A stretch of 64,000 bases of DNA from Bacteroides intestinalis (GTDB lineage Bacteria; Bacteroidota; Bacteroidia; Bacteroidales; Bacteroidaceae), in contig NZ_QRZF01000002.1 in NCBI RefSeq assembly GCF_003464595.1, forward strand, positions 230,052 through 294,051, written 5' to 3'. The notes below the pieces were generated by a model. The model ran no database searches. It worked only from the letters and a program-made list of their open reading frames with translations, and was not told where the DNA came from. The position numbers and the translations under genes were made by a program. How positions within the stretch are numbered: position 1 is the first letter of the stretch; every line of letters begins with the position of its first letter. This document shows, one piece after another, positions 1 through 45,285 of the stretch.

Positions 1-1
1 C

Positions 2-1498: not shown

Positions 1499-1583
1499 CA
1501 AAATCTATGTAGTATCGTTCCGTTCGATATTATTATCCGACTGTATCGAGTTCTAAGATTCTCAATCCACTAATCTAATTTGT

Positions 1584-1626: not shown

Positions 1627-1726
1627 ATCTGGACTATATCACTTGTCATAACGAGCTGGAACACCATTTATTATACGGTACAAAAGGCTGTTCAATAATA
1701 CTGTTTAAATAATAATATCTTACAGT

Positions 1727-3115: not shown

Positions 3116-3119
3116 ATTT

Positions 3120-3560: not shown

Positions 3561-3614
3561 TCTTTGATAATTTCGTTCAGCTGGGTATTATATCTGGCTG
3601 AACGGAGTGTTAGA

Positions 3615-3740: not shown

Positions 3741-4218
3741 TATTAAATGTTTATTATTGCACATCTTTTTATTTATAGTTCCTACGATATGTATGTCGCA
3801 GGGGGGTGTTACCCATTATATAGAGGATGTAGATGGTCATCCTGTTGATAGGTTGCTGGATGATGGGAAAACAGTAGAATATATAACATTAGAAGGTCAA
3901 AAAGTCATAGCTTATATTGCATATGGTGTGGAATTCAATGCAGGAAAGGATTCATTGGATAACTATGTGAAAAGATTCTATTACAATCAAGAAGGATATG
4001 ATAACGTTGAACTAAATCAACGTATAGTATTCTCTATTTTATTCGACAAGAATTTAAATATAATAGAAGTACGACAGTTGCCTCCTCATTTTTTGAGAAA
4101 GGAAGAATGTTACAAGAAGTTATTTATAGATATTCTGAATAATACTACCGGAATGTGGCATAAGATTATTGAACATAAAGAATGGTATGTGTATTGGTAT
4201 GTTACTCGTCTTTTCTAA
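3736..4218 (+). CDS. small secreted protein, putative orphan immunity
   Basis: A 160-residue protein with an N-terminal signal peptide (hydrophobic residues c.3-18, cleavage near the SQG sequence), so it acts in the periplasm or outside. The C-terminal half (IVFSILFDKNLNIIEVRQL... then a helix) looks like a TonB-C-type beta-alpha-beta unit, as does the protein at 8306. I recognise no named family. No toxin gene precedes it directly, but it sits between two RHS cassettes within a duplicated spacer, so an orphan immunity role against a periplasm-acting toxin is a reasonable inference. Confidence 0.6.
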   Translation: MIIKCLLLHIFLFIVPTICMSQGGVTHYIEDVDGHPVDRLLDDGKTVEYITLEGQKVIAYIAYGVEFNAGKDSLDNYVKRFYYNQEGYDNVELNQRIVFSILFDKNLNIIEVRQLPPHFLRKEECYKKLFIDILNNTTGMWHKIIEHKEWYVYWYVTRLF

Positions 4219-4289
4219 CTTTCTCGTTGCAGCGGGTGTTTCTACGAAAAGAATATTATTCGGCTGTTTTAATTTTCTAATCTAAATTT

Positions 4290-4324
4290 GCCCTGTCTCT
4301 GCATGTAGAGATAGGGCAAATCTT
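4290..4324 (+). terminator. hairpin terminator
   Basis: GCCCTGTCTCT (4290-4300) pairs with AGAGATAGGGC (4307-4317) around a short loop, followed by AAATCTTATT. It is related in sequence and context to the hairpin at 1584. Confidence 0.6.
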
Positions 4325-4429
4325 ATTATTCTTTTCTTTTGTGCATATAAATATTATTTAAAATTATTAGATTACATCCCTTCCACATCTTAAAACAATT
4401 TTAAACTTAAAGATAGAGTAAAATTACAT

Positions 4430-5542
4430 AATGAATATGCTTATGATGCCAATGGTAATTTAACACAAGATTTAAACAAAGGTATAGAGGATATTCAATA
4501 CAATTGCTTAAATTTGCCAAGACTGGTAAAGTTTAAGGATCAGAGTACTATTACTTATACTTATGCGGCAGATGGTACAAAGCTCCGCGTGGAACATAAG
4601 ATAGGAAGTAGCGCTACCCAGACAACTTACTGCAGTAATGTGATCTATGAAGATGGCACAGCCAAGTGTTTATTAACGGAAGAAGGTTATGTCTCTTTAG
4701 ACGACCGGGAATATCACTATTGCCTGAAGGACCATCAGGGAAACAACCGGGTACTGGTTAACAAGAATGGTGGCATAGAAGAAATCAATCATTATTATCC
4801 ATTCGGAGGTGTCTTTGCAAGTGAAGAGAATGTGCAGCCTTATAAGTATAATGGTAAGGAACTGGATACAAAGAAGGGGCTGAACAGGTATGACTATGGG
4901 GCAAGACAGTATGATGCGGCGCTGGGGAGATTTACTACGACAGATAGATTTGCTGAGAAATATTATTCAATGTCATCGTATCAGTATGGAGGAAATAATC
5001 CAGTTGGTAATATCGATGTGAATGGAGATAGTATAGTCATTAGCCCCAATCCCAATGGATTAATTGATTATATAAAATCGAGATTTGGTTACGATACAAA
5101 GTTCCAAAAAACAGTAAAAGCTGATTTAGCACAATTGAAGAAAGATGATAAAACTGTTGCTCAAATAATTTTAAAATTGGAGGACAGTGAAAATATTCAT
5201 CAAATTACAATGGTGGAGGATAGAAGAAAAGGTAACTTAACAGAAGTTGATAAAGAGAAAGCTGCCAAGGGAATTTCACAAGGCACTACTGTTAGATACG
5301 ATCCCTATATTCAAATAGAACCTAGCGGAGAGAAAAGAACTCCGAGGGTAGGACTAAGTCATGAGTTGCAACATTCTTATGATGCAGATCAAGGAACAAT
5401 GACTAGGGAAATAACAGAGAATGGTGTCTTGTTGATTGAAGTACGTGCAATTAATACAGAAAATAAAATAAGAATGAAAACAGGAGATCCTAAAAGAACC
5501 AAATATGGAGGAAGAGAAGTGCCTAAAACACTATTGGAGTAA
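4430..5542 (+). CDS. orphan RHS cassette C with M91-like metallopeptidase tip
   Basis: RHS homology starts at 4430 (NEYAYDANGN) and stays in frame to the stop, but no ATG is in frame; the first possible start is TTG 4514, so this is a truncated cassette. Counting from 4514, the core runs to about residue 139 (ALGRFTT) and then departs completely from copies A and B. The tip carries HELQH at residues 283-287 and a downstream glutamate in LLIEVRAINTENKIR (E309), the layout of zinc-dependent M91/NleD-like effector proteases. The predicted action is cleavage of a target protein in the recipient cell. The last 38 bases overlap the next gene, a likely immunity gene. The family call rests on motif and context. 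Confidence 0.78.
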   Translation, partial: NEYAYDANGNLTQDLNKGIEDIQYNCLNLPRLVKFKDQSTITYTYAADGTKLRVEHKIGSSATQTTYCSNVIYEDGTAKCLLTEEGYVSLDDREYHYCLKDHQGNNRVLVNKNGGIEEINHYYPFGGVFASEENVQPYKYNGKELDTKKGLNRYDYGARQYDAALGRFTTTDRFAEKYYSMSSYQYGGNNPVGNIDVNGDSIVISPNPNGLIDYIKSRFGYDTKFQKTVKADLAQLKKDDKTVAQIILKLEDSENIHQITMVEDRRKGNLTEVDKEKAAKGISQGTTVRYDPYIQIEPSGEKRTPRVGLSHELQHSYDADQGTMTREITENGVLLIEVRAINTENKIRMKTGDPKRTKYGGREVPKTLLE

Positions 5543-6008
5543 AATTATTCTAATTACTGGAATTGCCTTTATTCTTACTGCATGTATGTATATAAATAGA
5601 AAATCCAAAGAACAACATGCAAAAGAAAATGGTAATGAGCCTTATAAAGCTCTAAGTGTAAAATACCAAGATTCTATTTATCGTATGGTATTAAGATCAA
5701 ATGACATTGTCTTAAAAATGAAATATCCAGATGAATTTTTACGAACTTTAAAAGATTCAGGAGTTTTAAACATTGATAGTGCAACTTTTTATGAATTAAG
5801 AAAAGATATAGTAACACCTCAACCTCTAATAGATTCTATCTATAAAGGAAATGTTGATACTCTACTTTCTCACTTTTTTGATGATAATGGTTTTATTGCC
5901 TTTGAATTATCATATGATGAAGAAAAATACCTAATTGATATTTTATATCGAAATAAAATTCTTGTAAATGTTGCTTGTGAATCAGGATATTTATATATTG
6001 ACAACTGA
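5505..6008 (+). CDS. membrane-anchored/lipoprotein immunity candidate for tip C
   Basis: A 167-residue protein whose start (ATG 5505) overlaps the metallopeptidase toxin tip. A hydrophobic segment (residues c.12-28) ends in LTAC, so it may be a lipoprotein, or else anchored by one helix; the rest is a soluble, lysine- and aspartate-rich domain facing the periplasm. No known family is recognised. Immunity to the upstream protease is inferred from overlap and order. A periplasm-facing anchor would fit a toxin that is neutralised in the envelope. Confidence 0.62.
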   Translation: MEEEKCLKHYWSKIILITGIAFILTACMYINRKSKEQHAKENGNEPYKALSVKYQDSIYRMVLRSNDIVLKMKYPDEFLRTLKDSGVLNIDSATFYELRKDIVTPQPLIDSIYKGNVDTLLSHFFDDNGFIAFELSYDEEKYLIDILYRNKILVNVACESGYLYIDN

Positions 6009-6052
6009 TCTCGTTCGATTGGATATTCTATTTGATTGTATCAAGTCTTGAA

Positions 6053-6172
6053 TTTTTAATCTGCTAATCTTACATATCCCTGACCTTTACTATAAACAAT
6101 TAGTCTGGTCAGTTTTTGGGTGATTTTTGACTTAAAAGCTTACTCTAATGTCAAAACGATTAGGATATGATT
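6053..6172. repeat. intergenic spacer repeat, copy 2
   Basis: Nearly identical to 3615-3740, including the hairpin arms around CCCTGACC and GGTCAG and the CAAAACGATTAGG end. An ATG sits at the same position as the 3736 start, but here it opens only a 28-codon frame (6167-6253) that may be a gene scar. Confidence 0.8.
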
Positions 6173-6292
6173 GTAGTTAGTACTTGCGAAATAAGTGTAA
6201 TGGATAAATGGCTCTCCTTGGGAATTGTGGATATACTCTTTATTGTATATTGATTCTCAGGGGAGCTTTAAAATCTTATAAGTGTTTAGAAT

Positions 6293-6772
6293 ATGAAAAA
6301 TGGGTCTTCTTTTTTTAGATTATTATTAGTTATATGTATTGTGTTAATACATATACACATGAGCTTATATACAATAGGAAATATGACTAATCCTGTGACC
6401 TTTGTAATGATGTATTTACGATCAGATACGGATTTTATTTGGATATTTACCGGCTTTTGTGTGCAACTTATAGTAACAGCTTTGGCCGCTTACTTAATTT
6501 TGGGTTGGAAGCGGCTTTGGTGTTGGTTCCTAATTCTAATTTTGGGATTGTTTACCGTGCTTTATGCACTTGATTATCTGAATTTTTATTATTCATTACT
6601 TCCTGATATAGGCCTTAGTAGTATTTATTACAAGATTTATGAATATCCACAAGCTTTTGAGGGTGGAGTATATTATATCTTCTTGCAGTTATCAGCTATA
6701 TTGTTATATGGTTTCTTTGATTTCTTATTGAAAATCAAGGGCAAAAATCATGGGAAATCGGAGGAGAAGTAG
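6293..6772 (+). CDS. four-helix membrane protein, putative orphan immunity
   Basis: A 159-residue integral membrane protein with about four hydrophobic segments (residues c.8-28, 46-70, 75-95, 125-148) and a short basic C-terminal tail (KIKGKNHGKSEEK). I recognise no family. Small polytopic membrane proteins next to RHS cassettes often protect against membrane-acting toxins, but no toxin tip is next to it, so this is inference from neighbourhood. Low GC and separate hairpins fit the surrounding island. Confidence 0.6.
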   Translation: MKNGSSFFRLLLVICIVLIHIHMSLYTIGNMTNPVTFVMMYLRSDTDFIWIFTGFCVQLIVTALAAYLILGWKRLWCWFLILILGLFTVLYALDYLNFYYSLLPDIGLSSIYYKIYEYPQAFEGGVYYIFLQLSAILLYGFFDFLLKIKGKNHGKSEEK

Positions 6773-6825
6773 TGTTTTCCTTTTTAAGTGAAGATTAAGT
6801 GCAAGGAAAGGAGGAGAATATAATT

Positions 6826-6991
6826 ATGAAAATTCGAAATAGTAAAAGAACTTTTATCCTTCAGCAAGACATTGTGGCGGATAATAGAAAGGGGCTAACT
6901 AACAACTTAATGCAGTAATGTGATCTATGAAGATGGTACAGCCAAGTGGTTATTAACGGAAGAAGGTTATGTATCTTTGGATAACAGAGAG
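6826..6991 (+). pseudogene. hybrid scar: immunity-gene 5' end joined to RHS core fragment
   Basis: A frame beginning at ATG 6826 after a good GGAGG site copies the start of immunity gene A (FILQQDIVADNRKGLTN compared with FIPQQGIVADNKKGVTA) for about 25 codons. From about 6904 it runs into RHS core sequence that matches 4624-4710 (ttactGCAGTAATGTGATCTATGAAGATGG region) and stops at once. After about 6985 the RHS match ends. Neither half can be functional. It is a recombination scar and shows that both the RHS core and immunity genes have been moved here. Confidence 0.75.
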
Positions 6992-7127
6992 TTCTGTACA
7001 CCTGATGGCGGAAAAGTATTATTAAGTAAGCTTCTGTGAATTATTGCTCTTTTGATTTCGTAAATAAAGTGTGATTAAAGGTATATATAGGGAATGGTGA
7101 TTCATGGGCATTGAAGGAGGATGGGAA

Positions 7128-7566: not shown

Positions 7567-7887
7567 ATGAATGATTTTATTAGAATAATAAAGAAAGTAA
7601 GGTTGACTCCTATTCTTATTTATTCACTGATATTAATTATAGATAATCTTTTTTCTATGCCATTTATCAGTGGAGTTAACCAAGGGGCTATAGGAAATGT
7701 AATTTCGCTTTTAATAATAATATTATCTGTAATAGTTCTTGTAATAGAACGTTTTATTTCGTTTGGGAGTTACAATAAAAATCTCTGTATAATAGAGTTT
7801 ATACTCATAGCTATTACAACATTTTTTTATTGGTGTATTTTTTATTCATTGCCATTGTCAACAATGAATAGGCTTATTATGAATTGA
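7567..7887 (+). CDS. small membrane protein (three helices)
   Basis: A 106-residue protein with three clear hydrophobic segments (residues c.13-30, 42-62, 75-95). No family is recognised. The upstream spacer (7425-7470) repeats the GTTCAG..TATCTGGCTGAAC hairpin arms seen after immunity gene B near 3575-3605, which links it to the same modular island. Its pairing with the next membrane gene 39 bases downstream suggests joint transcription. Confidence 0.5.
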   Translation: MNDFIRIIKKVRLTPILIYSLILIIDNLFSMPFISGVNQGAIGNVISLLIIILSVIVLVIERFISFGSYNKNLCIIEFILIAITTFFYWCIFYSLPLSTMNRLIMN

Positions 7888-7925
7888 AATAATCTACGAG
7901 GGTATGTAATAGAAAGAAATAGATA

Positions 7926-8243
7926 ATGATAAAAAGAAATATATTAAACATTATTTTGCCTTTGTATTGGGGTTTACAAGGAATTTTTCTTCTTTCGATT
8001 CAGTCTATAGGTGCAATAATTGCTGCAGTAATTCTGCTGACAATATCTCTATTGAAAGTAATCTTGAGGAATCCTAATTGTGATATTCTGTTTTTAATAG
8101 TATGTTTCTTCTATTCTGTTTGTTTATGTGTTACTATATTTCTTTTATATTCTCTTTTCGAAATATCTATTATATTGCCTATATTTACAGTCGTAAATTT
8201 CTTGGTGATTGTATGTATGTTAAGGTTGTATGGGCATCGATAA
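7926..8243 (+). CDS. small membrane protein (three to four helices)
   Basis: A 105-residue very hydrophobic protein with segments covering most of its length (c.8-30, 33-48, 52-72, 75-100). Family unknown. Close behind the 7567 gene, in the same direction and of similar type. A frame starting at 8102 overlaps it in another phase and is not considered real. Confidence 0.5.
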   Translation: MIKRNILNIILPLYWGLQGIFLLSIQSIGAIIAAVILLTISLLKVILRNPNCDILFLIVCFFYSVCLCVTIFLLYSLFEISIILPIFTVVNFLVIVCMLRLYGHR

Positions 8244-8305
8244 GTTCATTCGATTTTGGCGATATGACGAGTTTAGATATGGAATAACATTAAAAAGGTA
8301 AGAAT

Positions 8306-8854
8306 ATGGCTATTAAATTTATATTTTCTTTTTTATTGATGATGGCTTCCGCATCGCTATATGGGCAAAGCAAAATAGTGAATGAAAGTGTTATCTACTC
8401 AAGTGATACCAGCCCTTATAAGAAAGAGGTACAAAGTAGTACATTTTTTGAAGTTGAGACTTTTTTGCCTGTATGTAAATCAATATTAGATACCACTAAG
8501 TCATCTAAACATGCTGTCTTCTATTACATTAAAAAGGAATTTCAAAAGGTATCTACAGATATATCTTACGTAGGTGGAAATGAGTCTTTAAGAGAATATC
8601 AAGATAGTCTTTATTGGGCTAATTATAATGGTGATGAAGTAAATGGTTCTTGTCTTTATACTATCCTCTTTAATGATAAACTTAAAATACGGGAAATAAG
8701 AATTATAAAAAGGGGAGGATATGATAATTCTAAATTTGATTATGATGGACTTATCAAGAAGATACTCTTATCCACGGAAGGAAAATGGCAAAGAGACGAA
8801 AAACTGCCTTCTGAAAACTGGTATTTTACAATGGGGCGTTTTATGGTAAGGTAA
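8306..8854 (+). CDS. secreted small protein, putative orphan immunity
   Basis: A 182-residue protein with an N-terminal signal peptide (FIFSFLLMMASASLYG, cleavage near GQS). The C-terminal part (LYTILFNDKLKIREIRII, then a helix, then a short strand) has the same outline as the 3736 protein and faintly recalls the TonB-C fold. Family not recognised. Like 3736 it is periplasmic and lies in the toxin/immunity island without an adjacent toxin, so orphan immunity is an inference. Confidence 0.58.
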   Translation: MAIKFIFSFLLMMASASLYGQSKIVNESVIYSSDTSPYKKEVQSSTFFEVETFLPVCKSILDTTKSSKHAVFYYIKKEFQKVSTDISYVGGNESLREYQDSLYWANYNGDEVNGSCLYTILFNDKLKIREIRIIKRGGYDNSKFDYDGLIKKILLSTEGKWQRDEKLPSENWYFTMGRFMVR

Positions 8855-8925
8855 GATGGGCTGCTTTGTTTTGCTAAATGTTAGATTCGGTTATATCAAA
8901 ATAAATGCTTTTAAATTTGAATAAA

Positions 8926-9198
8926 ATGAATGATGTAAAGAAAACCTTTGATACAATAAATAAAATCGTGGCAGATTGGGATCCTCTTGGTGTCGGTGAG
9001 ACTATTGCAGAAGATGAATATGCTGGTTATATACCTGAGATAATACAAGTAATGAAGAACGATCAATCGTTGTTTGAATATTTATCTCAGATTCTGGCGA
9101 ATGAATTAGGTCGCGGATTTGATTCTACTGATATGAAGCATGTTGAAGGCTTGAAATCTATTTGCGATAAGATTATTAGAGCATATATGGATATCTAG
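8926..9198 (+). CDS. DUF1871-like small protein
   Basis: A 90-residue soluble acidic protein. The VADWDPLGVG...EDEYAGYIPEI pattern matches the typical INxWDP...DEYxxEI layout of DUF1871-type proteins, a family often found beside polymorphic toxins as immunity or accessory proteins. ATG 8926 is used; ATG 8905 in the same frame would add seven residues. No membrane segment or signal peptide. The function is not known; its place in the island argues for orphan immunity. Confidence 0.6.
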   Translation: MNDVKKTFDTINKIVADWDPLGVGETIAEDEYAGYIPEIIQVMKNDQSLFEYLSQILANELGRGFDSTDMKHVEGLKSICDKIIRAYMDI

Positions 9199-9264
9199 CT
9201 TTTTCCGTAAATATTCTATAAACTAAGAGGGTTGTTAGATTACTAATCGTAAATCAGTATTATT

Positions 9265-9585
9265 ATGATGAGAAGTGAAAATCTTAACTTGTTGAAGTTG
9301 TTTGTTGACAAACAGGGCTTTCTGTATGTTGAAGAATTGAAAGAAACGACTTTGTTAGAATGCGACTTAAGAATTACGGGCGATGATGCTGTAGAGTTTA
9401 TCTTAGCCTTTGGGCAAGAGTTTAATGTGGATGTCTCTAAATTTAAATTGGATGAATATTTTGAGGCAGAGGGTGCTTTAGGACCTTTTTTCTCTTTTTT
9501 CTATAAATATGTAAGTTCTCCTTTAAAGAAGAAAATGGCAATTAAGGATTTGCTTGACGCTATGGAGAGTCATAAAATGGAGTAA
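9265..9585 (+). CDS. DUF1493-like acyl-carrier-fold protein
   Basis: A 106-residue soluble protein. Residues c.28-75 (ECDLRITGDDAVEFILAFGQEFNVD...FKLDEYFEAEG in outline) match the usual DUF1493 pattern of DL.ITGDDA.E....F...F.VD....YF..E. DUF1493 proteins resemble acyl carrier proteins but lack the attachment serine, which is also absent here (GDD in place of the DSL motif). They occur in toxin/immunity arrays. The role here is unknown; orphan immunity is the favoured reading. Confidence 0.6.
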   Translation: MMRSENLNLLKLFVDKQGFLYVEELKETTLLECDLRITGDDAVEFILAFGQEFNVDVSKFKLDEYFEAEGALGPFFSFFYKYVSSPLKKKMAIKDLLDAMESHKME

Positions 9586-9701
9586 TATTAATAAAGATAA
9601 AGATGTAGTTTTTAAGTTTGTGACTCTTTTGTACTCTTTTGTTTTTTGGATATTGTGTAACATAAATTTAATGTTGAAAACTATCATTTCTTGGATGATT
9701 T

Positions 9702-10130
9702 ATGAAATTAGAATATGAAATTTTGATTAATCAGTATGGACAGGATATTATTGATACAGATCGGCTAGTATCTTTGTTTGATAATTTGTGTAACAATGAC
9801 AAGAGAACCTTCATAAATGGGCTTGTTACTTTAATAATTCAGTCAAGACCTGAAACTGGAGATATTGAACCTGCTATTTTGTGTAGTAGATTAAAACCGA
9901 CTTATACACCCTGCGTTTTACTTAAAAAAGGGGTGGAGAACTCTAATTTATATAAGATTGCAGAATTGCCTAATAATGAATTGAGGAAAGTTGTTATTTT
10001 GTTGCTGTCTGTATTTAAAATAGCTTATAGACGTAGATATGAACAAGAAAGGGATAATCCAGATAAATGGTGGTATTGGGATTTGTCTGATGATAAGAAG
10101 ATTAATCTTTTGAATTCTATGATTAAGTAA
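9702..10130 (+). CDS. DUF5958-like protein
   Basis: A 142-residue soluble, mainly helical protein. The segment SRLKPTYTPCVLLKKG with flanking helices resembles DUF5958-type proteins, which are often found as small single genes near polymorphic toxins. Family assignment is from memory of the motif and not checked. It is the last gene of the AT-rich island; the codon and base composition change abruptly at the next gene, ndk. Confidence 0.5.
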   Translation: MKLEYEILINQYGQDIIDTDRLVSLFDNLCNNDKRTFINGLVTLIIQSRPETGDIEPAILCSRLKPTYTPCVLLKKGVENSNLYKIAELPNNELRKVVILLLSVFKIAYRRRYEQERDNPDKWWYWDLSDDKKINLLNSMIK

Positions 10131-10255
10131 TTGCTTATTTATCCTTTTTGCCTCTAATATACATAAAAAAGACTCAATGAAGAGCGTATTTCAGTGAAAA
10201 GTCGTATTTTTGGGAAAGAGTTGTTTTATAACTTTTAAAAAAAGAATCGACTATT

Positions 10256-10720
10256 ATGATGGAGAAAACACTGGTCATTTTAAAACCATGCACCCTGCAA
10301 AGAGGTTTGGTAGGTGAGATCACAAATAGATTTGAACGCAAAGGCTTACGTTTAGCCGGTATGAAGATGGTGCAGTTGACGGATGAAATACTCAATGAGC
10401 ATTATGCCCACTTAAGTGCAAAGCCGTTCTTTCAGCGCGTGAAGGATTCAATGATGGCATGCCCGGTCATTGTGTGTTGTTTTGAGGGAGTGGATGCGAT
10501 TGAAGCTGTAAGAACACTGACAGGTCCCACCAACGGCAGGAAGGCTGCTCCCGGTACTATTCGTGGAGATTACAGCATGAGTTTCCAGGAGAATATAGTG
10601 CATGCCTCCGATTCGCTTGAAGCAGCAGAAGTGGAGTTGAAAAGATTTTTTAAACCGGAAGAAATATTTGAGTATAATCAAGCTACATTCGACTTCCTTT
10701 ACGCTAATGACGAATATTGA
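10256..10720 (+). CDS. ndk: nucleoside diphosphate kinase
   Basis: A 154-residue cytosolic enzyme that passes phosphate from a nucleoside triphosphate to a diphosphate through a phosphohistidine. The sequence starts with the typical EKTLVILKP, has FFQRVKDSM, GPTNGRKAAPGTIRGDY and the active-site NIVHASDS motif with its catalytic histidine, and ends near the usual length (about 150). Two ATGs occur in a row (10256 and 10259); either may be used. This is the first core gene after the accessory island, with its own upstream region of 125 bases. Confidence 0.95.
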   Translation: MMEKTLVILKPCTLQRGLVGEITNRFERKGLRLAGMKMVQLTDEILNEHYAHLSAKPFFQRVKDSMMACPVIVCCFEGVDAIEAVRTLTGPTNGRKAAPGTIRGDYSMSFQENIVHASDSLEAAEVELKRFFKPEEIFEYNQATFDFLYANDEY

Positions 10721-32419: not shown

Positions 32420-32536
32420 CGGGTTTTTGTCTAAGGAGAGAGGGTAATATCGTTCATTACAATAGTCCTTATTGTCCGGGCAGCTTGTCTTATTCTAAAA
32501 AAGACTTGTGAAGTTTCTATTTATGGAAACATTTGC

Positions 32537-32544
32537 TACCTTTG
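32537..32544 (+). promoter_or_regulatory. -7 promoter element for the higBA pair
   Basis: TACCTTTG lies 21 bases before ATG 32565. This argues that the longer frame beginning at 32508 is not used. Confidence 0.6.
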
Positions 32545-32564
32545 TAGTGTTCAATCATAAACAC

Positions 32565-32927
32565 ATGGAGGCAAAAGAAAGATTTAAAGTTGTTTACTCG
32601 ACTGATGCAACGGAATTTCTGCAAAAGATAGGAGTAAAGACGCGTGAAAAAATAGTTTATAATATTGATAAGGCTATCTATACATTGGATCCTGAACTTT
32701 TTAAGAAGTTAACAGGTGATATTTGGAAGTTTAGAACTTTATATAATGGTAAACAATACCGTCTATTGGCATTTTGGGATAAAACATGTGATGTAGATAC
32801 TTTAGTTATCGCTACACATGGTTTTATTAAGAAAACTCAGAAAACACCATCAAAGGAAATAGGTAAGGCGATTGAGATAATGAAAGCATATTTTGAACAA
32901 AAAAGATTAAGGAGATGGAAGAGATAA
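32565..32927 (+). CDS. higB: HigB/RelE-type toxin of a toxin-antitoxin pair
   Basis: A 120-residue protein of the phage Gp49-like/HigB family of RelE-fold mRNA interferases. The typical layout is a helical start, VKTREKIVYNIDKA, then LTGDIWKFRTLYNGKQYRLLAFWD (core strands with basic residues) and IATHGFIKKTQKTPSKEI, where family members have HGF.KK...TP. It would cut mRNA at the ribosome when free. Toxin precedes antitoxin and overlaps it by 13 bases, the usual HigBA order. Lies directly left of ssrA; on the chromosomal side of the element boundary, so not part of the integrated element. Confidence 0.88.
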   Translation: MEAKERFKVVYSTDATEFLQKIGVKTREKIVYNIDKAIYTLDPELFKKLTGDIWKFRTLYNGKQYRLLAFWDKTCDVDTLVIATHGFIKKTQKTPSKEIGKAIEIMKAYFEQKRLRRWKR

Positions 32928-33229
32928 AATTTTATACTCATGAAGAAGTGAAAGATTTATTGATAGGAGAAGTCGGTACTCCGGAGCGTGACAGGTATGA
33001 GGAACAGCTAGATCTATTCCTCATCGGAGACGCTATTAAGCAAGCGAGACAAGCCAAAAACTTAACTCAAGAAGATTTAGGTAAACTTGTTGGCGTACAG
33101 AAAGCCCAAATATCAAGGATTGAAAATGGTAAGAACTTAACCTTTGCTACAGTAATAAAGCTTTTCAAGGCAATGGGATTGAGTGCCAGGTTAGAAGTAG
33201 ATAGCTTGGGAAAGATAGCTTTGTGTTAA
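32915..33229 (+). CDS. higA: HigA-type antitoxin with XRE helix-turn-helix
   Basis: A 104-residue protein that should bind and neutralise the upstream toxin and repress the pair's promoter. The HTH is at residues c.47-100: AIKQARQAKNLTQEDLGKLVG, then VQKAQISRIENGKN, a canonical XRE pattern. The N-terminal 45 residues are acidic and probably hold the toxin-binding part. Overlaps higB by 13 bases. The next gene on this strand is ssrA, 86 bases further on. Confidence 0.88.
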   Translation: MEEIKFYTHEEVKDLLIGEVGTPERDRYEEQLDLFLIGDAIKQARQAKNLTQEDLGKLVGVQKAQISRIENGKNLTFATVIKLFKAMGLSARLEVDSLGKIALC

Positions 33230-33315: not shown

Positions 33316-33709
33316 GGGGTTGACTGGATTTGACAGCGGGTAGAAATAGTAAGTAAGCATGCAGTGCGTCGTTGATTTGCACTTTAATCTCAGTCCTCAA
33401 AATTTTATCTGGCGAAAGACAATACGCTCTTGCTGCTTAATCGAATCATAGTAGATTAGCTTAATCCCGGCACTAGGTGCTGGGACGAGACATCACTCGG
33501 AAGCTGTTGCTCCGAAGCATTCCGATCCAGTGGTGCAGTTACATCGGGGATAGTTCTTGTCGGCCTTGAGGCGAGAATGAAACTTTAAAGGATAAGGCAA
33601 TGGTTGATGGCTTTGGTTCTGCCGTTGCTCGAAAACTTAGGCAAAGATAAGCATGTAGAAAGCTTATGATTTCCTCGTTTGGACGAGGGTTCGATTCCCT
33701 CCAGCTCCA
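33316..33709 (+). ncRNA. ssrA: tmRNA (chromosomal copy, 3' end used as integration site)
   Basis: The 394-base tmRNA rescues stalled ribosomes and tags the unfinished protein. The 5' GGGGTTG pairs with CAGCTCC before the discriminator A at 33709, giving a seven-bp acceptor stem that keeps the G3-U wobble read by alanyl-tRNA synthetase. The T arm is GAGGG-TTCGATT-CCCTC. The tag frame starts at GGC 33411 and reads GERQYALAA followed by TAA at 33438. The terminal CCA is not fully encoded (CAA), while at the right end of the element (45060-45064) the original CCA is present. Its natural terminator is also found there, 11.35 kb away. Confidence 0.95.
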
Positions 33710-33710
33710 C
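33696..33710 (+). repeat. left attachment site (attL)
   Basis: The 15 bases TCCCTCCAGCTCCAC at the 3' end of ssrA recur exactly at 45048-45062. The GGTTCGA of the T loop just upstream also recurs at the right end (45037-45043). Confidence 0.85.
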
Positions 33711-33715
33711 AAATA

Positions 33716-33795
33716 AGATTGATAATCAGATTGTTACAGGATTTACACCCCGAAATACACCCTAAAATAAAAAGTGATAGTCTGATTATCATTCT
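33716..33795 (+). terminator. inverted repeat behind ssrA, possible replacement terminator
   Basis: AGATTGATAATCAGA (33716-33730) and TCTGATTATCATTCT (33781-33795) are reverse complements with one mismatch, 50 bases apart. It may end ssrA transcription now that the native terminator is displaced, or bind recombination proteins. The long loop makes a terminator role uncertain. Confidence 0.4.
33743..33762 (+). repeat. integrase arm-type repeats, left end
   Basis: Two TACACCC words (33744-33750, 33756-33762), 12 bases apart start to start. The same pair with the same spacing occurs at the right end (44912-44930). Confidence 0.6.
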
Positions 33796-33879
33796 TTATA
33801 TCAAGCACTACCTACAAGTCTTAAATAATTTAACTATTATGATGCCTTGTGGTATTCTATTATATTTTTTGCTGTTTTG

Positions 33880-33910
33880 TTTGTTCTTATCAAATAAATA
33901 CGTAACTTTG
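33880..33910 (+). promoter_or_regulatory. consensus promoter of the element-borne tmRNA
   Basis: TTTG (33880-33883), 19 bases, TAACTTTG (33903-33910): a full match to the Bacteroides TTTG-N19-TAnnTTTG promoter, 12 bases before the 5' end of the second tmRNA. Confidence 0.75.
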
Positions 33911-33922: not shown

Positions 33923-34317
33923 GGGCTTGACTGGAATTGACAGCGAGTTGGAATGGTATGTAAGCATGCAGTGGGTCGGTAATTTCCACTTAAATCTCAG
34001 TTATCAAAATTTTATCTGGCAACGAAAATTATGCTCTCGCTGCTTAATCGAAGTATAGTAGATTAGCTTTATTTCTGCCAAAGTGGTGGAAACGAGATGT
34101 CGCTCAAAAGCTCTTGCTCCGAAGCGTTTGATAAAGCGGCACAGCAAAATCGGGGATAGTTTGAGTTCTTCTCCATAGCTCTTACGAAATATTAGGAGAT
34201 AAGGCATAGGTTGGTGGCTTTGGTCTTGCTTATGCTCGAAAACCGAAGGCAAAGATAAGCATGTAGAAAGCATATGGTTTCCTCGTTTGGACGGGAGTTC
34301 GATTCTCCCCAGGTCCA
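33923..34317 (+). ncRNA. ssrA: second tmRNA carried by the mobile element
   Basis: A 395-base gene colinear with the chromosomal ssrA but clearly diverged. Acceptor stem GGGCTTG pairs with CAGGTCC; the fourth pair is C-G where the chromosomal copy has G-C, a compensatory change, and the G3-U pair for alanine charging is kept. The T stem is GGGAG/CTCCC, again with coordinated changes. The tag frame starts at GGC 34018 and reads GNENYALAA, then TAA at 34045. The conserved CTCAG..ATCAAAATTTTATCT block before the resume codon is intact. A consensus promoter precedes it. All this suggests a working tmRNA rather than a decayed duplicate. Confidence 0.93.
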
Positions 34318-34591
34318 CTTTTGATGAGCGGTAAGTATATCATGAAAACTAATGGTGTTTTCTGTATTGCTTGTTGTTTTGTACCTTGAGTTTTTGTGAA
34401 TACCCCGATTTTGTTACTCCATTCCATCCCCTTTGAAATTTTAAAGTATTAAATAATCTAATCCTTTCTGTAAGCGATTTAAGTTGTTTTTCTAAAATTG
34501 TTATTTAAAAATATATTAACATGGATGATTAGTTGCTTATAAATAGTGACAGTCTTCCTGTTTTGTAATAACCTTAAAAATCAGATCTCTT

Positions 34592-38140: not shown

Positions 38141-39544
38141 TTACATTCTGAATCCTTTGGATTTTTGTTCTTTCTGCACTGAGTTACGCAGATGCTGCTG
38201 TAACTTCTCCCATTGTTCCTTGAACCATTCGCTGATTGGCTGTTGGTTTATAGTCAGCATCAATTTATTCTTATTGATCGGGCTTCGTTCAATTTTGAAA
38301 ATTACATTTTTTGTTTCAAATCTCTGTCTATATTCTTCGGAATAGATTTTTCCACTACATCTGAGAGCTTCCCTTTTGTATAAAAGAGAATCAACCATCC
38401 CCTTGGTAAAACCAGTGACATAGCATAATTTTTCCATTCTCAGCATTTCTTTGAGCAATGGGAACCAGCATAATGCTTTTTCGAGAATGGTATTCAATCG
38501 TGATATTTCCTTGTCTTTAGCTTCAAGCTCTTGATTATGTATTCCCTGTATATTACGAATCTGTTTGCCGTGCTGTTCCTGCATTTGCTGCATCTTGGCT
38601 TTTAATTCATCAATGCTCTTGTCACGTTTGGCAATTTCATGACGTAAATTCTCGTTAGATTGTTCCAAATCTTTTAATTTACCGCTTCCGAAAAGAGAAC
38701 CTACACTGCTGGTTATGGCTGTGGCTACATCGGTAGCTGCACTTTTGAGTTTGTCCGTACGTATCTCTGCTTTTACCTGTTTGAGTTCCTGCTCGGCGAG
38801 GCTTACCTGTTGCTCCTTGTGTCGCTTGGTTTCCTCTATACGTTGCAGTTCGGCTTTCTGTTTCTCAATGATAAAATCGTTCCGTTCCAAATGCTCTTTA
38901 CCTGTAACAGCTTTTGCCTGCCCACGTTCCATCAGGAGAATATCGGAAGCAAGGGTCTGCATAGTTGCCATATCCTCGTCATTGAGCTTTCGGCTCTTCC
39001 CGGTTTCGTGGTTCATCCAGTCGAAAACGATATGGGCATGATAGTTCGGCTTGAACCATCTGTTACCGACTTGGAAGCACTCTTTGTCTTCCGCTTCCGG
39101 CTGACCGTTCAGCCAATGCCCTTCGTCTTTGTGCAGGAAAATCTGTAGCGGAGTGATGCCCCAGCGTCTTTGACACTCTTCACCGAATTTGCGTACATCA
39201 GCCAGTGTGGTGTCCGGTCTGATAAGCAATACTCCTTCACGGATGGGTGAACATCCCGCCACCTTGATAATCTTTCCATTCTTTCCCTTGCGTTCCCTTT
39301 CCTTTTCCTGCATGGCACGTCCGGTCTTTTCCTTGACCATCCGCTTGATATTGTCATAGTGCGTCCGCAGTTCGGGAGTGCCGAAGTCGGGATTTATCCA
39401 CTGTTCGTTATCGGTGGAAAGTTCGGGAACGACATAGATTCTGGACTCCCCGATATTACGCATATACTCGGCAGTCCTTCGGTTGTGCGCCTCGCTCGAT
39501 GCGATGTTGCAAGGCTTGATATGTATGCTTGATTTTGTTGCCAT
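38141..39544 (-). CDS. mob: MOBV-family relaxase (mobilization protein, Mob/Pre)
   Basis: A 467-residue nickase that cuts at oriT and leads the element's strand into a recipient using a helper's mating channel. The relaxase domain covers residues c.1-210: N-terminal SSIHIKPCNIASSEAHN, LHKDEGHW (H138, H143) and the three-histidine-type PNYHAHIVFDWMNHETGK (H169, H171), typical of Mob_Pre proteins. Residues c.220-345 form a long coiled coil. Corresponds to MobN1 of NBU1 by position. The putative oriT lies just upstream of its start, and the cargo promoter just beyond its end. Confidence 0.92.
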   Translation of the reverse strand: MATKSSIHIKPCNIASSEAHNRRTAEYMRNIGESRIYVVPELSTDNEQWINPDFGTPELRTHYDNIKRMVKEKTGRAMQEKERERKGKNGKIIKVAGCSPIREGVLLIRPDTTLADVRKFGEECQRRWGITPLQIFLHKDEGHWLNGQPEAEDKECFQVGNRWFKPNYHAHIVFDWMNHETGKSRKLNDEDMATMQTLASDILLMERGQAKAVTGKEHLERNDFIIEKQKAELQRIEETKRHKEQQVSLAEQELKQVKAEIRTDKLKSAATDVATAITSSVGSLFGSGKLKDLEQSNENLRHEIAKRDKSIDELKAKMQQMQEQHGKQIRNIQGIHNQELEAKDKEISRLNTILEKALCWFPLLKEMLRMEKLCYVTGFTKGMVDSLLYKREALRCSGKIYSEEYRQRFETKNVIFKIERSPINKNKLMLTINQQPISEWFKEQWEKLQQHLRNSVQKEQKSKGFRM

Positions 39545-39580: not shown

Positions 39581-39760
39581 CGCTTTCGTAGAGGGGTTCT
39601 TAGGGGTAACCCATAAGCGGAGATTGCAAAGAGAGGGTCACTCTTTGCTCGGGGTTCTCAGGGGTGAAACGCCCTGAGTGGGTCATTAGGGCAAAGCCCT
39701 AATCCCCTCGGGAGAGCCCACAACTACGAAAGCGGAGCGTGTAGTTATAGTGGGCTATAA
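39581..39760. other. putative origin of transfer (oriT)
   Basis: The gap between primase and relaxase genes is full of inverted repeats: CGCTTTCGTAG (39581-39591) with CTACGAAAGCG (39724-39734); TTAGGGC-AAA-GCCCTAA (39686-39702); GCCCAC (39716-39721) with GTGGGC (39750-39755) and inner AACTAC/GTAGTT; and the palindrome TTATAG-TGGG-CTATAA (39745-39760). TATAGTGGGCTATAA resembles the TATAGTGTG/TTATA nick region of the MOBV plasmid pMV158. Position just upstream of mob equals that of the NBU1 oriT. The nick position is inference. Confidence 0.65.
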
Positions 39761-40711
39761 CCGGAAGCCGTTCTTCTTCTCCGGTGATTGGCTGCGCACC
39801 CCTTTGGCGGACTGGAGCTGCCTTTTTCTTTCAATCTGTTTCTGTAAGTATTCGTTCAAGTCCTTGCATCCGCTGTAAATCTGCGAAGCGTCCCGGATGT
39901 ACCGGTCTCTGCCGTATTCCATGCGGATTTGCCGGAGTGCTTCCATTCCTGCATGGTCGTTGTCGAAAAAGCAGTGGATGCGTTCGTAATTGCCCAACGG
40001 ATAGAGAGCCTTGTTTATATTCGATACGGAGTTCAATACAATGTAGTCCTGCCCGTCCAATTCCGGATAATTCGGGCAGCTTTCCTGTCTCAATGTCAGA
40101 AAGGAAAGGTAGTCCATGAAACCCTCGAACACATAGCAGGCAGTCCTTGCTTTTCCCGCCTGTCTGATGTGGGAGATTTCCTTGGGGGCGATGCAGCCCT
40201 TGAAATAGGGGTTACGAACCTCAAACCCACCCGAACCGTTAGGGAATGCGATGGCAAAGTAACGCTTGCCGTTGTGGGTGTAACGGGCTTCACTACATTC
40301 TCTTTTTGCCAGTTCCAGATTTATTCCTCTACCTTGTAAATAGGAAAGCAGGGCAGGAGACGATAGCGGTACTATCTCCAGCTGCTGGAAGCTCGGACCG
40401 AAAGAGTCTTGCTTGCCAAAAGAGAAAGATACCGGGTGTACATGCGGTGTTTGTTCCGCAATCCGCTCCAGCAGGTAAGGTACATGGTCGGTAGCATACA
40501 GGTGTGCAGCCAGTTCAATGATACCGCCCCCTTTCCCTAAACCGAAGTCGTACCACTGGTTGCGTTCGGTGTTCACTTTGAAGGAAGCCTCTGTTTCTTC
40601 CCTCAAGGGAGATTTGTACCAGAGGTTGATACCCTGCTGTTTGACGGGTGAATAACCCAGGCTGTGCAGGTAGTCAGCCAGATTGATTTGTTTTGCAGTC
40701 TCGATGTTCAT
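39755..40711 (-). CDS. Toprim-domain DNA primase of the element
   Basis: A 318-residue protein corresponding to PrmN1 of NBU1. The N-terminal c.95 residues look like a zinc-finger primase domain that has kept the fold (SPLREETEASFKVN, WYDFGLGKGGGIIELAAH) but not clear zinc ligands. The Toprim domain has YVFEGFMDYLS (catalytic glutamate) and CFFDNDHAG (DxD). It would prime complementary-strand synthesis after transfer or replication of the excised circle. ATG 40711 is preferred to 40762. Its stop overlaps the oriT palindromes. Confidence 0.85.
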   Translation of the reverse strand: MNIETAKQINLADYLHSLGYSPVKQQGINLWYKSPLREETEASFKVNTERNQWYDFGLGKGGGIIELAAHLYATDHVPYLLERIAEQTPHVHPVSFSFGKQDSFGPSFQQLEIVPLSSPALLSYLQGRGINLELAKRECSEARYTHNGKRYFAIAFPNGSGGFEVRNPYFKGCIAPKEISHIRQAGKARTACYVFEGFMDYLSFLTLRQESCPNYPELDGQDYIVLNSVSNINKALYPLGNYERIHCFFDNDHAGMEALRQIRMEYGRDRYIRDASQIYSGCKDLNEYLQKQIERKRQLQSAKGVRSQSPEKKNGFRL

Positions 40712-40786
40712 AAGGAAATCGTTTTTAGTGAGTACTTTGATTATTTCTTTTTTTGCCCGCAACTCTTAAAACTATGCGGTCTGTAC

Positions 40787-40922: not shown

Positions 40923-41990
40923 TTAATAGTGGTAATCGGGCTTGAAGGAATACTTCCTGCCGTTTTCCTGTACTATCATCCGTTTGTTGCGCAGCATGGT
41001 GATAAGTGCCACTGCATTCTGGTGATTCAGCCTAACCCCCTCTGCCAGATAAGTCTTGATTAAGGTGTCTTCCAGCTCCTTGTAGCCGTATTCCTCTTTC
41101 AGTGCAAAAGCGGCTTCCAGTGCGGCACGGTGCTGCGGTTCTGAAATATCCTTGTAAGGGTCAAACTTTTCCACCGAGGGTCTTCCCGGCTTCCTTACTT
41201 CCGGCTTGTAACCTTCCGCAAGTTCGGGCAGGGCTCGGTCGTTGATGCGGAATGCAAAAGGCTCGAAATCCATCGCCCGGATGTGCATGGCGGAAACATG
41301 GCTGATGTCGCTGTTCCCCTTGTCCTTTTCCACCAGCAGGACTGTTTCTGCCTTGTTGTTCAGTTCCGTACCGATGTGCCCTCTTGCGTTCTCATCCCCC
41401 TTGTTCTGATGCAGTATCGTATGGATATGAATCTGCCTGTCGTCCGTCCACTGCATCAGCTTGGATATGATGCGGGTGGATTCACCGGGGCTGTTGATGT
41501 CGTACACCATATCCCGGATGCCGTCTATGATGACCAGCCCAATATCCGGTGAGTGGTAGATAGCCTGTTCTACAATGCTGATGCGCTGTTCCGGGGTGTA
41601 TTTTCTCAAAGCGAGAAACTCCAGATAACCGCTGTCCCTGTCGTCGGGCAATCCTGCCATCCGCAGAATCCGCTTCATCACTTTCAGGCAGTGGTAGGGG
41701 CTTTGCTCCGTATCTATATAAAGCACTTTCCGCTTTTCCTCGGGCAGTTCAGCCGCATATCGTAACACGGTACTGTTCTTCAATGCAGCGGCTACGATAG
41801 CCGATACATTGAAGGTTTTCTTGCTCTTGGCTTTGCCGATGGATGCGCTGAAATTGCCCAGCGTCCCGATGACAGAGCCGTGTACTTTCAGAATTTCGGG
41901 GGCTTTTTCGTAGCATCTTGACAGACTTAGCCGGGATTCCTGCCAGAGGATAACGGCTTGTTCGGGTGATATTTCTTTTATATAGTCCAT
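40923..41990 (-). CDS. RepA-like AAA ATPase (NBU1 orf3-like)
   Basis: A 355-residue ATPase of the RepA/AAA_25 type. Walker A region FSASIGKAKSKKTF near residue 53, DTEQSPYHC (c.98), Walker B region IGLVIIDGIRDM (c.165), sensor region HTILHQNKGDENARGHIGTEL. Residues c.255-355 are a C-terminal winged-helix-like part. Members are hexameric helicases or related NTPases in plasmid and element replication. ATG 41990 is chosen because GGAGGTGATT lies directly upstream. Placed between the small DNA-binding gene and the primase, as orf3 is in NBU1, where this region is needed for excision. Confidence 0.85.
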   Translation of the reverse strand: MDYIKEISPEQAVILWQESRLSLSRCYEKAPEILKVHGSVIGTLGNFSASIGKAKSKKTFNVSAIVAAALKNSTVLRYAAELPEEKRKVLYIDTEQSPYHCLKVMKRILRMAGLPDDRDSGYLEFLALRKYTPEQRISIVEQAIYHSPDIGLVIIDGIRDMVYDINSPGESTRIISKLMQWTDDRQIHIHTILHQNKGDENARGHIGTELNNKAETVLLVEKDKGNSDISHVSAMHIRAMDFEPFAFRINDRALPELAEGYKPEVRKPGRPSVEKFDPYKDISEPQHRAALEAAFALKEEYGYKELEDTLIKTYLAEGVRLNHQNAVALITMLRNKRMIVQENGRKYSFKPDYHY

Positions 41991-42001
41991 AATCACCTCC
42001 T

Positions 42002-42310
42002 TTATCTGCGTCCTCCGGTTTTCTTTCCAGCCAGTTCCAGTGCCAGTTCCGCATCCACGATAATCTTGCGTCCAATCTGGGTAATGGCTTTGTCTATCTT
42101 TCCGCTTTTCTTGATGCGGTTGGCTGTGGGCAGGCTGCATCCGAAAAGCTTGGCTATGCCGAGTATGCCGTACACGTACTTTCTTTCCGTGTCGGTGGTT
42201 GGCTGCGGTTGCGCCTCTGCCTGTACCGAAGCGTGTCTGCTTAAAAAAAGGAACTCTTCGCCTGTCATCTGCCAGACGGGTTTCACTAACAGTTCTTTGA
42301 GATTGTTCAT
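42002..42310 (-). CDS. DUF3853 small DNA-binding protein (excisionase-like, orf2x-like)
   Basis: A 102-residue protein of the DUF3853 type. The C-terminal half (VYGILGIAKLFGCSLPTANRIKKSGKIDKAITQIGRKIIVD, shown in outline) is a MerR/excisionase-like winged helix. It likely acts as directionality or regulatory factor in excision, equivalent to orf2x of NBU1. ATG 42310 is chosen (MNNLKELL). A TAATTTTG promoter element lies at 42379-42386 on this strand with an 11-mer repeat next to it. Confidence 0.85.
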   Translation of the reverse strand: MNNLKELLVKPVWQMTGEEFLFLSRHASVQAEAQPQPTTDTERKYVYGILGIAKLFGCSLPTANRIKKSGKIDKAITQIGRKIIVDAELALELAGKKTGGRR

Positions 42311-42378
42311 CGTCCGTATGATTACTTGTTTGACAATAGCCCTGCGCACAGGCTGTTTTTTTCTGTTCTCGAACGATG

Positions 42379-43596: not shown

Positions 43597-44889
43597 TTAT
43601 AGGAGATTAAATTTGTTCATTGCCTGAATTTTGATGTCGTCTGCTATGTCAATGTAAGGTTTCATGGCTTTGTAGTCGCTATGCCCTGTCCATTTCATGA
43701 CCACTTGCACCGGAATGCCCAGAGCCAAAGCATTACAAATAAATGTGCGTCTGCCAGTATGGGTGCTCAACAAGGCATATTTAGGTGTGACTTCGTCTAT
43801 TCGTTCATTTCCCTTGTAGTAGGTTTCCCGTACAGGTTCGTCTATTTCTGCCAGTTCTCCTAACTCTTTCAAATACTCGTTCATCTTCTGATTACTTACC
43901 ACTGGCAATGCTTTATTGTTTTGGAAAGGAATATCTTTATATTTTTCAAGAATAGCTTTGCTGTGGTCATTCAGCTCAATAATAAGGCTGTCAGCCGTTT
44001 TGATGGTGGTAATTTCTATGTGTTCCTCTTTCACGTCGCTGCGTTTCAAGTTATACACATCAGAATGCCGAAGACCTGTGAAGCAACAAAATAATAAAAC
44101 ATCCCTTACTCTTTCAAGGTATTGTTTGGCAGCAGGTATCTGGCAGGCTCTGATTTTGTCCAATTCATTCCGGGTAAGGAATATTACTTTTTTCGGTGCA
44201 CTTTTCATTTTGGGCATGAATTTGTCATAAGCGGTGTTTTGATGATACCCTTTTCGGTTAGTCCAACGTAAAAACCATTTCAAGAACTTGATTTGCTTGG
44301 CTATGGAAGTGTTGCGCATATCTTTATCACTGCGTAAGTAATCTATATACTCATTGAAGTGTCTTTCCGTCCAGCTCTCAAATGTCGTGTTCGGATCAAA
44401 AGTTGCGATGTGCTTTTTTACTGTTGCAAACTTCTTTAGAGTAGAGGATGACCAGTCATTTTGTTTGCTGCATTCGGCAACAAACTCATCAAAGATTTTC
44501 ATGAAGTCTAATTTCACTTCCTCTTTCTCATGATGGCTCTCTTCCTTTTCTCCTTTCATTTTTAGATTGAAAGCCTCTTTGATTTGTGCAGGGGTGGGCA
44601 TTATGTCTTGTACTTCGAACTCCTTGAACACATTCTGTATCTCGGTGTATTGACGCAGTAGTTCGGTGTTGATTTCTGATGCGCTTTGTTTCAGCTTATT
44701 GGTACAGCCGTTTCTTACCCGTTGCTTGTCTGCATCCCATTTCTCCATATCAATCCGATAGCCTGTTGTAAACTCAATCCGTTGGCTTGCAAAAACGACA
44801 CGCATACGGATGGGTACATTTTGAGTGATAGGAATGCCATCTTTTTTACGGTTTTCCAGTGCGAAGATGATATTTCTCTTGATGTTCAT
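43597..44889 (-). CDS. int: tyrosine site-specific integrase
   Basis: A 430-residue recombinase. N-terminal arm-binding domain (c.1-110), SAM-like core-binding domain (c.125-225), catalytic domain with R274 (FTGLRHSD), H377-R380 (STHTGRR), H403 (WTGHSD) and nucleophile Y412 (KPYIDIAD). It would insert and excise the element at the 3' end of ssrA. It starts 158 bases from attR, with arm-type repeats in between, the normal layout for NBU1-class integrases. The coding end abuts the orf2-like gene (two bases apart). Confidence 0.95.
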   Translation of the reverse strand: MNIKRNIIFALENRKKDGIPITQNVPIRMRVVFASQRIEFTTGYRIDMEKWDADKQRVRNGCTNKLKQSASEINTELLRQYTEIQNVFKEFEVQDIMPTPAQIKEAFNLKMKGEKEESHHEKEEVKLDFMKIFDEFVAECSKQNDWSSSTLKKFATVKKHIATFDPNTTFESWTERHFNEYIDYLRSDKDMRNTSIAKQIKFLKWFLRWTNRKGYHQNTAYDKFMPKMKSAPKKVIFLTRNELDKIRACQIPAAKQYLERVRDVLLFCCFTGLRHSDVYNLKRSDVKEEHIEITTIKTADSLIIELNDHSKAILEKYKDIPFQNNKALPVVSNQKMNEYLKELGELAEIDEPVRETYYKGNERIDEVTPKYALLSTHTGRRTFICNALALGIPVQVVMKWTGHSDYKAMKPYIDIADDIKIQAMNKFNLL

Positions 44890-44930: not shown

Positions 44931-45047
44931 AATAATTGAGATATGCAATGATATTAAGAGATATTTAGATAGATGATAGCTAAATATAACTATTTAATAA
45001 TCTGATGTTTGATAGATTATGATATTTTATAAAAAGGTTCGAGAGAC

Positions 45048-45062
45048 TCCCTCCAGCTCCAC
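45048..45062 (+). repeat. right attachment site (attR) with the displaced ssrA 3' end
   Basis: TCCCTCCAGCTCCAC identical to attL, followed by the encoded CA of the original CCA end and then chromosomal DNA. Confidence 0.85.
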
Positions 45063-45074
45063 CAATAAAAATGG

Positions 45075-45112
45075 GAAGTCCTTGAACTGTTAAAGTTCAG
45101 GGACTTTTGTTT
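45075..45112 (+). terminator. native ssrA terminator, displaced by the element
   Basis: AAGTCC-TTGAACT pairs with AAGTTCA-GGGACTT around GTTA and is followed by TTGTTTT. It stands 13 bases beyond the right attachment site, where it would have ended ssrA before integration. The remaining bases to 45285 hold no gene I can support. Confidence 0.8.
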
Positions 45113-45285
45113 TACCAGATATTCTCTCTTACTTTCCAACTTTTTAGTCCCTCTTAATTGAAGTATCCAGTTTGTATTCTCTTTTGAATTCAGTTCTGTT
45201 AAACAAAAGTAATCGGACAGTATAAAGTTTTCTTTTTAGACTATCTTTTTTTATTTTTGGGAAGATATAATAAGCAGATAAGGTT

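Follow-up and report, generated by a model that had tools for sequence, protein, structure and literature searches.

The locus and its two tmRNA genes

The window, a 64,000-nt stretch of the Bacteroides intestinalis genome (contig NZ_QRZF01000002.1, positions 230,052 to 294,051), contains two complete tmRNA genes on the plus strand with a spacing of 211 nt (Table 1). The upstream gene is the host ssrA, and the downstream gene, which we call ssrA2, lies just inside attL of an integrated element of about 11.35 kb; the element is bounded by the two att repeats, and its tyrosine integrase adjoins attR. Both genes matched the whole Rfam model RF00023 (1-374, gathering score 47), the host gene with 135.0 bits and ssrA2 with 131.4 bits over 33923-34320, which confirmed the full-length second copy claimed in the initial annotation by the covariance check suggested there for both copies. 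The gene had been located correctly, while its end moved by one base, from 34317 to 34318, in the ARAGORN call (33923-34318, tag GNENYALAA). ARAGORN mis-calls the host tag, which we read by eye as GERQYALAA, the same as in relatives, and both tags agree with those annotated. ssrA2 has the G3.U70 pair, paired acceptor and T stems and an in-frame tag ending in a stop, and its T stem GGGAG/CTCCC carries two compensated pair swaps relative to GAGGG/CCCTC. The identity pair, the T stem and a C-G at acceptor pair 4 are all as described beforehand, but pair 4 C-G turned out to be an ordinary polymorphism (29/172 distinct ssrA genes) and was dropped as a special trait. A candidate promoter, TTTG-N19-TAACTTTG, which we take to be the Bacteroides-type consensus, ends 12 nt upstream of ssrA2, in line with the earlier proposal of an own promoter; the motif was found twice in the whole window on both strands against about 2.2 occurrences expected by chance, and its position is the one thing that speaks for it. 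No clear terminator was found for ssrA2 of the window. ssrA2 is a complete second ssrA belonging to the mobile element.

Table 1. Coordinates of the features at the ssrA locus in the window
Feature	Position	Strand	Basis
Host ssrA, tag GERQYALAA, 3' end supplied by the element (attL)	33316..33712	+	RF00023, 135.0 bits; GERQYALAA host clade
attL core (T stem 3' strand, acceptor 3' strand)	33693..33721	+	Direct repeat D9 with 45045-45073
Long element-supplied hairpin immediately downstream of host ssrA	33715..33796	+	RNA fold
Candidate Bacteroides-type promoter of ssrA2	33880..33910	+	Pattern match
ssrA2, complete element-borne ssrA	33923..34318	+	RF00023, 131.4 bits; ARAGORN
ssrA2 tag reading frame, GNENYALAA-stop	34018..34047	+	ARAGORN
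ssrA2 T arm GGGAG-TTCGATT-CTCCC, overlying the integrase target sequence	34293..34309	+	Sequence comparison
Putative mobilization (relaxase-like) protein, YHAHIVF motif	38141..39544	-	Motif by eye
Primase-like protein, Toprim_2; CHC2 zinc finger below its cut-off	39755..40762	-	Pfam
AAA_25 ATPase, RepA/helicase-like by inference	40923..42140	-	Pfam
DUF3853 protein, excisionase-like by inference	42002..42349	-	Pfam PF12964, 4.9e-42
Tyrosine integrase (Arm-DNA-bind_5, SAM_5, Phage_integrase)	43597..44889	-	Pfam
attR, displaced native 3' end of host ssrA, CCA encoded	45045..45073	+	Direct repeat D9
Displaced native ssrA terminator hairpin and T run	45074..45113	+	Fold, -21.5 kcal/mol, z -4.66

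The acceptor and T stems of the window's host tmRNA remain fully paired after integration. The native terminator and the encoded CCA lie displaced in the attR region, as had been annotated, but this is a weak argument for lost function because a strong element hairpin directly follows the host gene (-25.3 kcal/mol, z -5.92, 0/200 shuffles as strong) and 165/172 distinct ssrA genes encode no CCA. With the CCA encoded in only 7/172, its loss was rejected as damage. The hairpin is possibly a replacement terminator or an integrase-binding region. As for an integrative mobilizable element, the integrase and flanking att repeats are present, while the relaxase-like assignment comes from a motif recognised by eye in a product that gave no significant Pfam or PDB match. 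The host ssrA is preceded, at a distance of about 90 nt, by a Gp49-like/HTH pair of toxin-antitoxin type (32508-33229), and region 1-7000 of the window holds three copies of a 300-nt direct repeat, 94-96% identical to the reference copy and unrelated to the element.

Origin and spread of the element-borne genes

A quick tree was built from 174 distinct ssrA genes with the att region excluded and with SH-aLRT support only; the underlying table had 195 rows after 10 of 205 nhmmer hits were dropped for not spanning the model. The element copies of the window, B. propionicigenes NSJ-90 (G001), the Phocaeicola MAG BRZ_KM bin66 (G915) and genome G285 form one clade (98), which nests in a larger clade of 25 rows (99) that does not include the host gene of the window. 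The nearest named row to ssrA2 is Phocaeicola massiliensis (93), the only named host around it in a tree with many rows from the genus of G001. The window host gene falls into a clade of GERQYALAA hosts (99) with one ssrA match each. The tree excludes a duplication of the host ssrA, since ssrA2 sits in a different ssrA lineage; this separate lineage, the complete fold and the location on an element uphold the earlier statement that ssrA2 is not a decayed duplicate. Fragmented assemblies do occur among the genomes studied, with N gaps in B. finegoldii DSM 17565 and with two copies in G174 that may reflect contamination, but an assembly error or an ordinary tandem duplication hardly accounts for copies that differ by 22% in the window, for a tandem arrangement that recurs in independent genomes or for its presence on a single contig in G177, and we hold such an artefact to be extremely improbable.

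The initial annotation had also offered retargeting of tagged proteins, by which ssrA2 would tune the turnover of element or host proteins through its different tag. The two tags do differ, but GNENYALAA is the tag in 14/21 host rows of the clade containing ssrA2, and relatives in which one ssrA match was found also have GERQ tags. Because the tags track lineage and share the ending YALAA, we regard retargeting as very unlikely, and a tag change was rejected as an element trait since tags follow host clades. Two further element genes, described below, also speak against it: one took over the middle of its host gene, tag included, and kept its own ends, and the other encodes GENNYALAA, the commonest tag (71/195 rows).

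By comparing genomes, we found that the element is 99.9-100% identical over aligned blocks in G001 and G177, and that ssrA2 is identical at 398/398 positions in these two and the window. It is 397/398 in G915, 99.4% over 350 nt in B. finegoldii DSM 17565 (G071) and 98.5% in G285. The resident ssrA genes of the window, G001, G177, G285 and G915 are 78-86% identical to ssrA2. These comparisons indicate that ssrA2 travels with the element, and the proposed search of Bacteroides for further ssrA-integrated elements with a second ssrA was successful (G001, G177 and B. finegoldii DSM 17565). In the DSM 17565 locus, N gaps break both ssrA copies, and the genome was hence scored as having no tmRNA in the genus survey. 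B. finegoldii TSDC17.2 (L040) is without the element and has one ssrA in the 30 kb examined, with GGGCTTG/CAGGTCC; it cannot serve as a clean empty site for DSM 17565, in which attR is separated from the shared right flank by another ~5.5 kb. In G285, the tandem pair is on a 6.3-kb contig that may be foreign to the MAG, and a third ssrA is on another contig. In G177, the element is interrupted (L032, ~7851-10335) by some 2.5 kb of other sequence with a group II intron match.

It could be argued that ssrA2 is a passenger, acquired once from another lineage, for example by imprecise excision, and of no benefit to the element. Its different lineage from the window host gene, the near-identity in three hosts, which is consistent with the whole element having spread very recently (99.9% over 11 kb between carriers), and the intact host acceptors in 5/10 carriers would all agree with this. 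In G915, ssrA2 (99.75%) is likewise conserved to no greater degree than the cargo genes beside it (99.2-99.75%), whereas in G285 it shows 6/396 differences against 11/210 in the adjacent spacer (p 0.017). Moreover, ssrA2 was kept in DSM 17565 and G285 despite DNA right after it that cannot be aligned with the window, its full fold and compensated changes are preserved, and an unrelated conjugative element has an ssrA of its own. Weighing these points, we consider the passenger explanation unlikely.

This second element is inserted in the host ssrA of G182 (~63 kb), G507 (57 kb) and G479 (split over two contigs); G182 belongs to the genus of G001, and the other two belong to another genus of the family. 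Homologues of TraG, TraJ and TraM and an integrase were found in G182 only, and the integrase is 26% identical to that of the window. Its complete ssrA is identical at 399/399 positions in the three genomes, with the T stem CGGAG/CTCCG. The conjugative element carries its ssrA independently of the window element. An AbiEi/AbiEii toxin-antitoxin pair lies directly beside this ssrA in G182 (L169:7500-9168).

The surveys used strict filters and both missed DSM 17565. In the genus, 133/158 genomes matched at E 1e-30, and five gave two matches (G001, G177, G182, G106 and G174), among which G174 has near-identical copies on two contigs at 5% contamination. In the family, 348/399 genomes matched at E 1e-25, seven with two or more matches (G001, G177, G182, G285, G414, G479 and G507). 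The second match in G106 (L036:8817-9195) is a divergent tmRNA of 78.9 bits, uncalled by ARAGORN, in a tRNA cluster (Met, Phe, Asn, Trp, Ser); no phage structural family was found among six surrounding proteins. Three plasmid matches (H1-H3) look like pieces of chromosome and were rejected as tmRNA plasmids: genes of chromosome type (hpt, obgE, lpxA) occur on H2 and H3, and H1 has no annotation in the stretch.

The host acceptor stem after integration

Acceptor pair 4 is G-C in 141, C-G in 29 and C-C in 2 of the 172 distinct ssrA genes, and the two C-C rows are the host genes of G507 and G479, both carrying the conjugative element. Two more C4.C69 cases are G915, on a single contig, and DSM 17565, where the 5' end and attL are on separate contigs with overlapping sequence. 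In all four genomes, the displaced native strand in attR would pair fully. The mismatch changes the folding energy of a toy acceptor hairpin from -9.0 to -2.5 kcal/mol (6.5 lost) and that of a loop-free acceptor duplex from -10.8 to -6.0 kcal/mol (4.8 lost). Altogether, the host stem is intact in five of the 10 carrier genomes (window, G001, G177, G285 and G182), mismatched in four and destroyed in one. Through integration, the acceptor stem of the host tmRNA thus receives its 3' strand from the element; the stem is rebuilt in G4-C69 hosts, to which the window belongs, and left with C.C in the four C4-G69 hosts.

The destroyed case is the Bacteroides MAG RGIG4661 (G914), in which a related element (integrase 75%) sits in ssrA. 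The host copy ends with CCTCCAAGGTGTAAA in place of CCTCCAGGTCCA, so that the upper part of the stem has been lost together with G3.U70 and the discriminator A. Of the two tmRNA matches in this genome, the element ssrA is the only intact one, with a terminator-like stem-loop and T run downstream, recognised by eye. It is a mosaic: its ends, which include the GGGAG/CTCCC T stem, equal those of ssrA2 in the window (first 40/40 and last 36/36 columns identical), while its middle, tag included, follows the G914 host copy, a clustering reached in 2/20000 shuffles with gap columns excluded. The TTCGANTCCCTCCAAGGTG junction gave three one-mismatch hits in the 399 family genomes, none with ssrA similarity in the surrounding 3 kb, and no hit in the viral contigs; we therefore rejected it as recurrent, the destroyed host copy having been seen in one MAG only.

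The suggestion in the initial annotation that the second gene covers for reduced host ssrA function is borne out in these relatives, with their mismatched or destroyed acceptors, but not in the window, where the host stems are paired. By the pairing test, ssrA2 in the window, G001, G177 and G285 and the conjugative-element ssrA in G182 would be redundant, and because the window host stem is intact, the benefit there would be insurance at most. Loss of tmRNA need not be lethal and may be costly, since the backup factor ArfB is common, being reported in 1,426 of 1,956 genomes of a group that includes Bacteroidota (PMC11633108).

Among 79 loci with relatives of the window integrase, seven have an ssrA-type att, and an ssrA was found in 3/7. 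At the 72 loci with other targets, no ssrA (0/72) was found in the stretch examined, many stretches being ended by contig ends. Two integrations of the same family without their own ssrA, in Dysgonomonas HGC4 and a Prevotella MAG, have a paired host stem; this contrast comprises two genomes (G911 and G912), with integration judged by eye from spacer likeness. In G069, G019 and G030, an integrase lies beside an ssrA-like 3' fragment. The genome of locus L048 (integrase 74%, att at ssrA) was uninformative, as the tmRNA search had no match there.

These loci also bear on a role in counter-defence or stress, in which a second tmRNA would guard against an attack on host tmRNA or against heavy ribosome stalling. 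Phages are reported to carry tmRNA genes (PMC4131195, PMC9004378) and the AbiEi/AbiEii pair in G182 would suit such a role, which nevertheless leaves unexplained why the gene occurs on ssrA-targeting elements and at 0/72 other targets, as well as the damage to acceptors. We give it little credence.

A proposed model for integration into ssrA with a replacement gene

ssrA is a common integration site of genomic islands, and in the usual account the island rebuilds the gene. Judging by our cases, one polymorphism in the acceptor may be enough to defeat this rebuilding, and elements may respond by bringing an entire ssrA of their own. In the mechanism that we propose, the integrase would act on the 3' end of ssrA in the host, with the crossover ahead of acceptor pair 4, and exchange the host acceptor 3' strand for that of attP. 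In a G4-C69 host this would rebuild a paired stem, while in a C4-G69 host it would leave C4.C69 next to the alanine identity pair G3.U70; with one related element, the stem top is lost altogether, along with G3.U70 and the discriminator A. Because integration can mismatch or destroy the host acceptor stem, the element would bring a complete ssrA with its own promoter, which, if expressed and charged, would maintain trans-translation after integration. The own copy probably keeps the cell supplied with tmRNA where the insertion spoils the host gene, and integration would be tolerated in a wider range of hosts. We find this explanation reasonably likely as a whole, namely that ssrA2 is a working tmRNA gene and part of the integration module of ssrA-targeting Bacteroidales elements, keeps trans-translation going after integration and widens the host range.

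The T stem may belong to the same adaptation. GAGGG/CCCTC is found in 148/174 distinct ssrA genes and GGGAG/CTCCC in 5/174, namely four element copies and the extra tmRNA of G414. Relative to 19 hosts of its own clade, ssrA2 departs at 10/285 near-invariant columns, and four of the 10 departures are the two compensated T-stem swaps. The surplus in the T arm is modest (4/33 columns in the last 36 nt against 6/252 elsewhere, Fisher p 0.019). We hypothesize that the pattern fits selection for a TLD that still folds, its stem swapped pair by pair, yet is no longer attB, so that the integrase target would be lost; we keep to a hypothesis because Bacteroides integrases are reported to tolerate core mismatches (PMC10865867).

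A bolder form of the explanation is tmRNA-dependent integration. Here, the elements would replace the host rescue RNA and, in incompatible hosts, hold its only working copy, making the cell dependent on them until excision; this copy would be integrase-proof through the T-stem swaps and would adopt the host mRNA-like domain by gene conversion. We advance it tentatively, at somewhat less than an even chance. The att site does overlap the host ssrA, and the element carries a complete cognate RNA gene. The closest parallel is the tRNA-dependent lysogeny of mycobacteriophages (PMC10865867), in which a tyrosine integrase likewise targets the 3' portion of an RNA gene, the RNA is sometimes left unrestored by attP, and the element carries a gene of the same RNA kind that can replace it. 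By contrast, our cases involve tmRNA and mobilizable or conjugative elements instead of phages, and the damage is host-dependent, often of one base pair and total once; the lysogeny was shown by experiment, whereas the tmRNA case is read from sequence. Failed rebuilding that is answered by carriage of the whole gene would extend tRNA-dependent lysogeny to tmRNA and conjugative elements, provide a testable host-range rule in acceptor pair 4, account for some second ssrA alleles and open a way to integration vectors for Bacteroides.

NBU-type elements of Bacteroides are mobilizable and CTnDOT-type elements are conjugative. The elements described here resemble them in the domain make-up of the integrase, in the primase and AAA genes and, for the larger one, in the Tra proteins, but differ in the ssrA target and in carrying an ssrA gene; NBU1 integrates at a leucine tRNA (PMC10865867). 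Dehalococcoides vcr islands (PMC3146451) and Pseudomonas islands (PMC12595487) also target the 3' end of ssrA and are flanked by direct repeats, although a second complete ssrA is not mentioned in the available text of either account. For the open-licence literature, within the portions of text available, we found no report of an ssrA-inserted element with its own complete ssrA. Complete tmRNA genes on mobile genomes are known from phages, including Bxz1 and its relatives, Bacillus phage G and Melnitz, and genomes with extra ssrA alleles are known as well (PMC4131195, PMC9004378). Here, however, the gene sits in ssrA-inserted elements, while the phage accounts, in the sections available, draw no link to a damaged host ssrA, and the corresponding part of the Melnitz paper found no integrase or other sign of integration in that phage.

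The second tmRNA of G414 (L178:7093-7492), with the T stem GGGAG/CTCCC, lies beside genes for tRNA-Glu, tRNA-Ser and a DnaB-like helicase of a phage family; the contig is possibly a prophage or phage contig. The odd T stem was also found in 13 viral contigs, and ARAGORN called tmRNA-type genes in five of them, two of these permuted, with unrelated tags. On contigs L299 and L300, the tags are ANDNANQAAA and DADFEQAAA, and the T stems follow a common NGGAG/CTCCN pattern.
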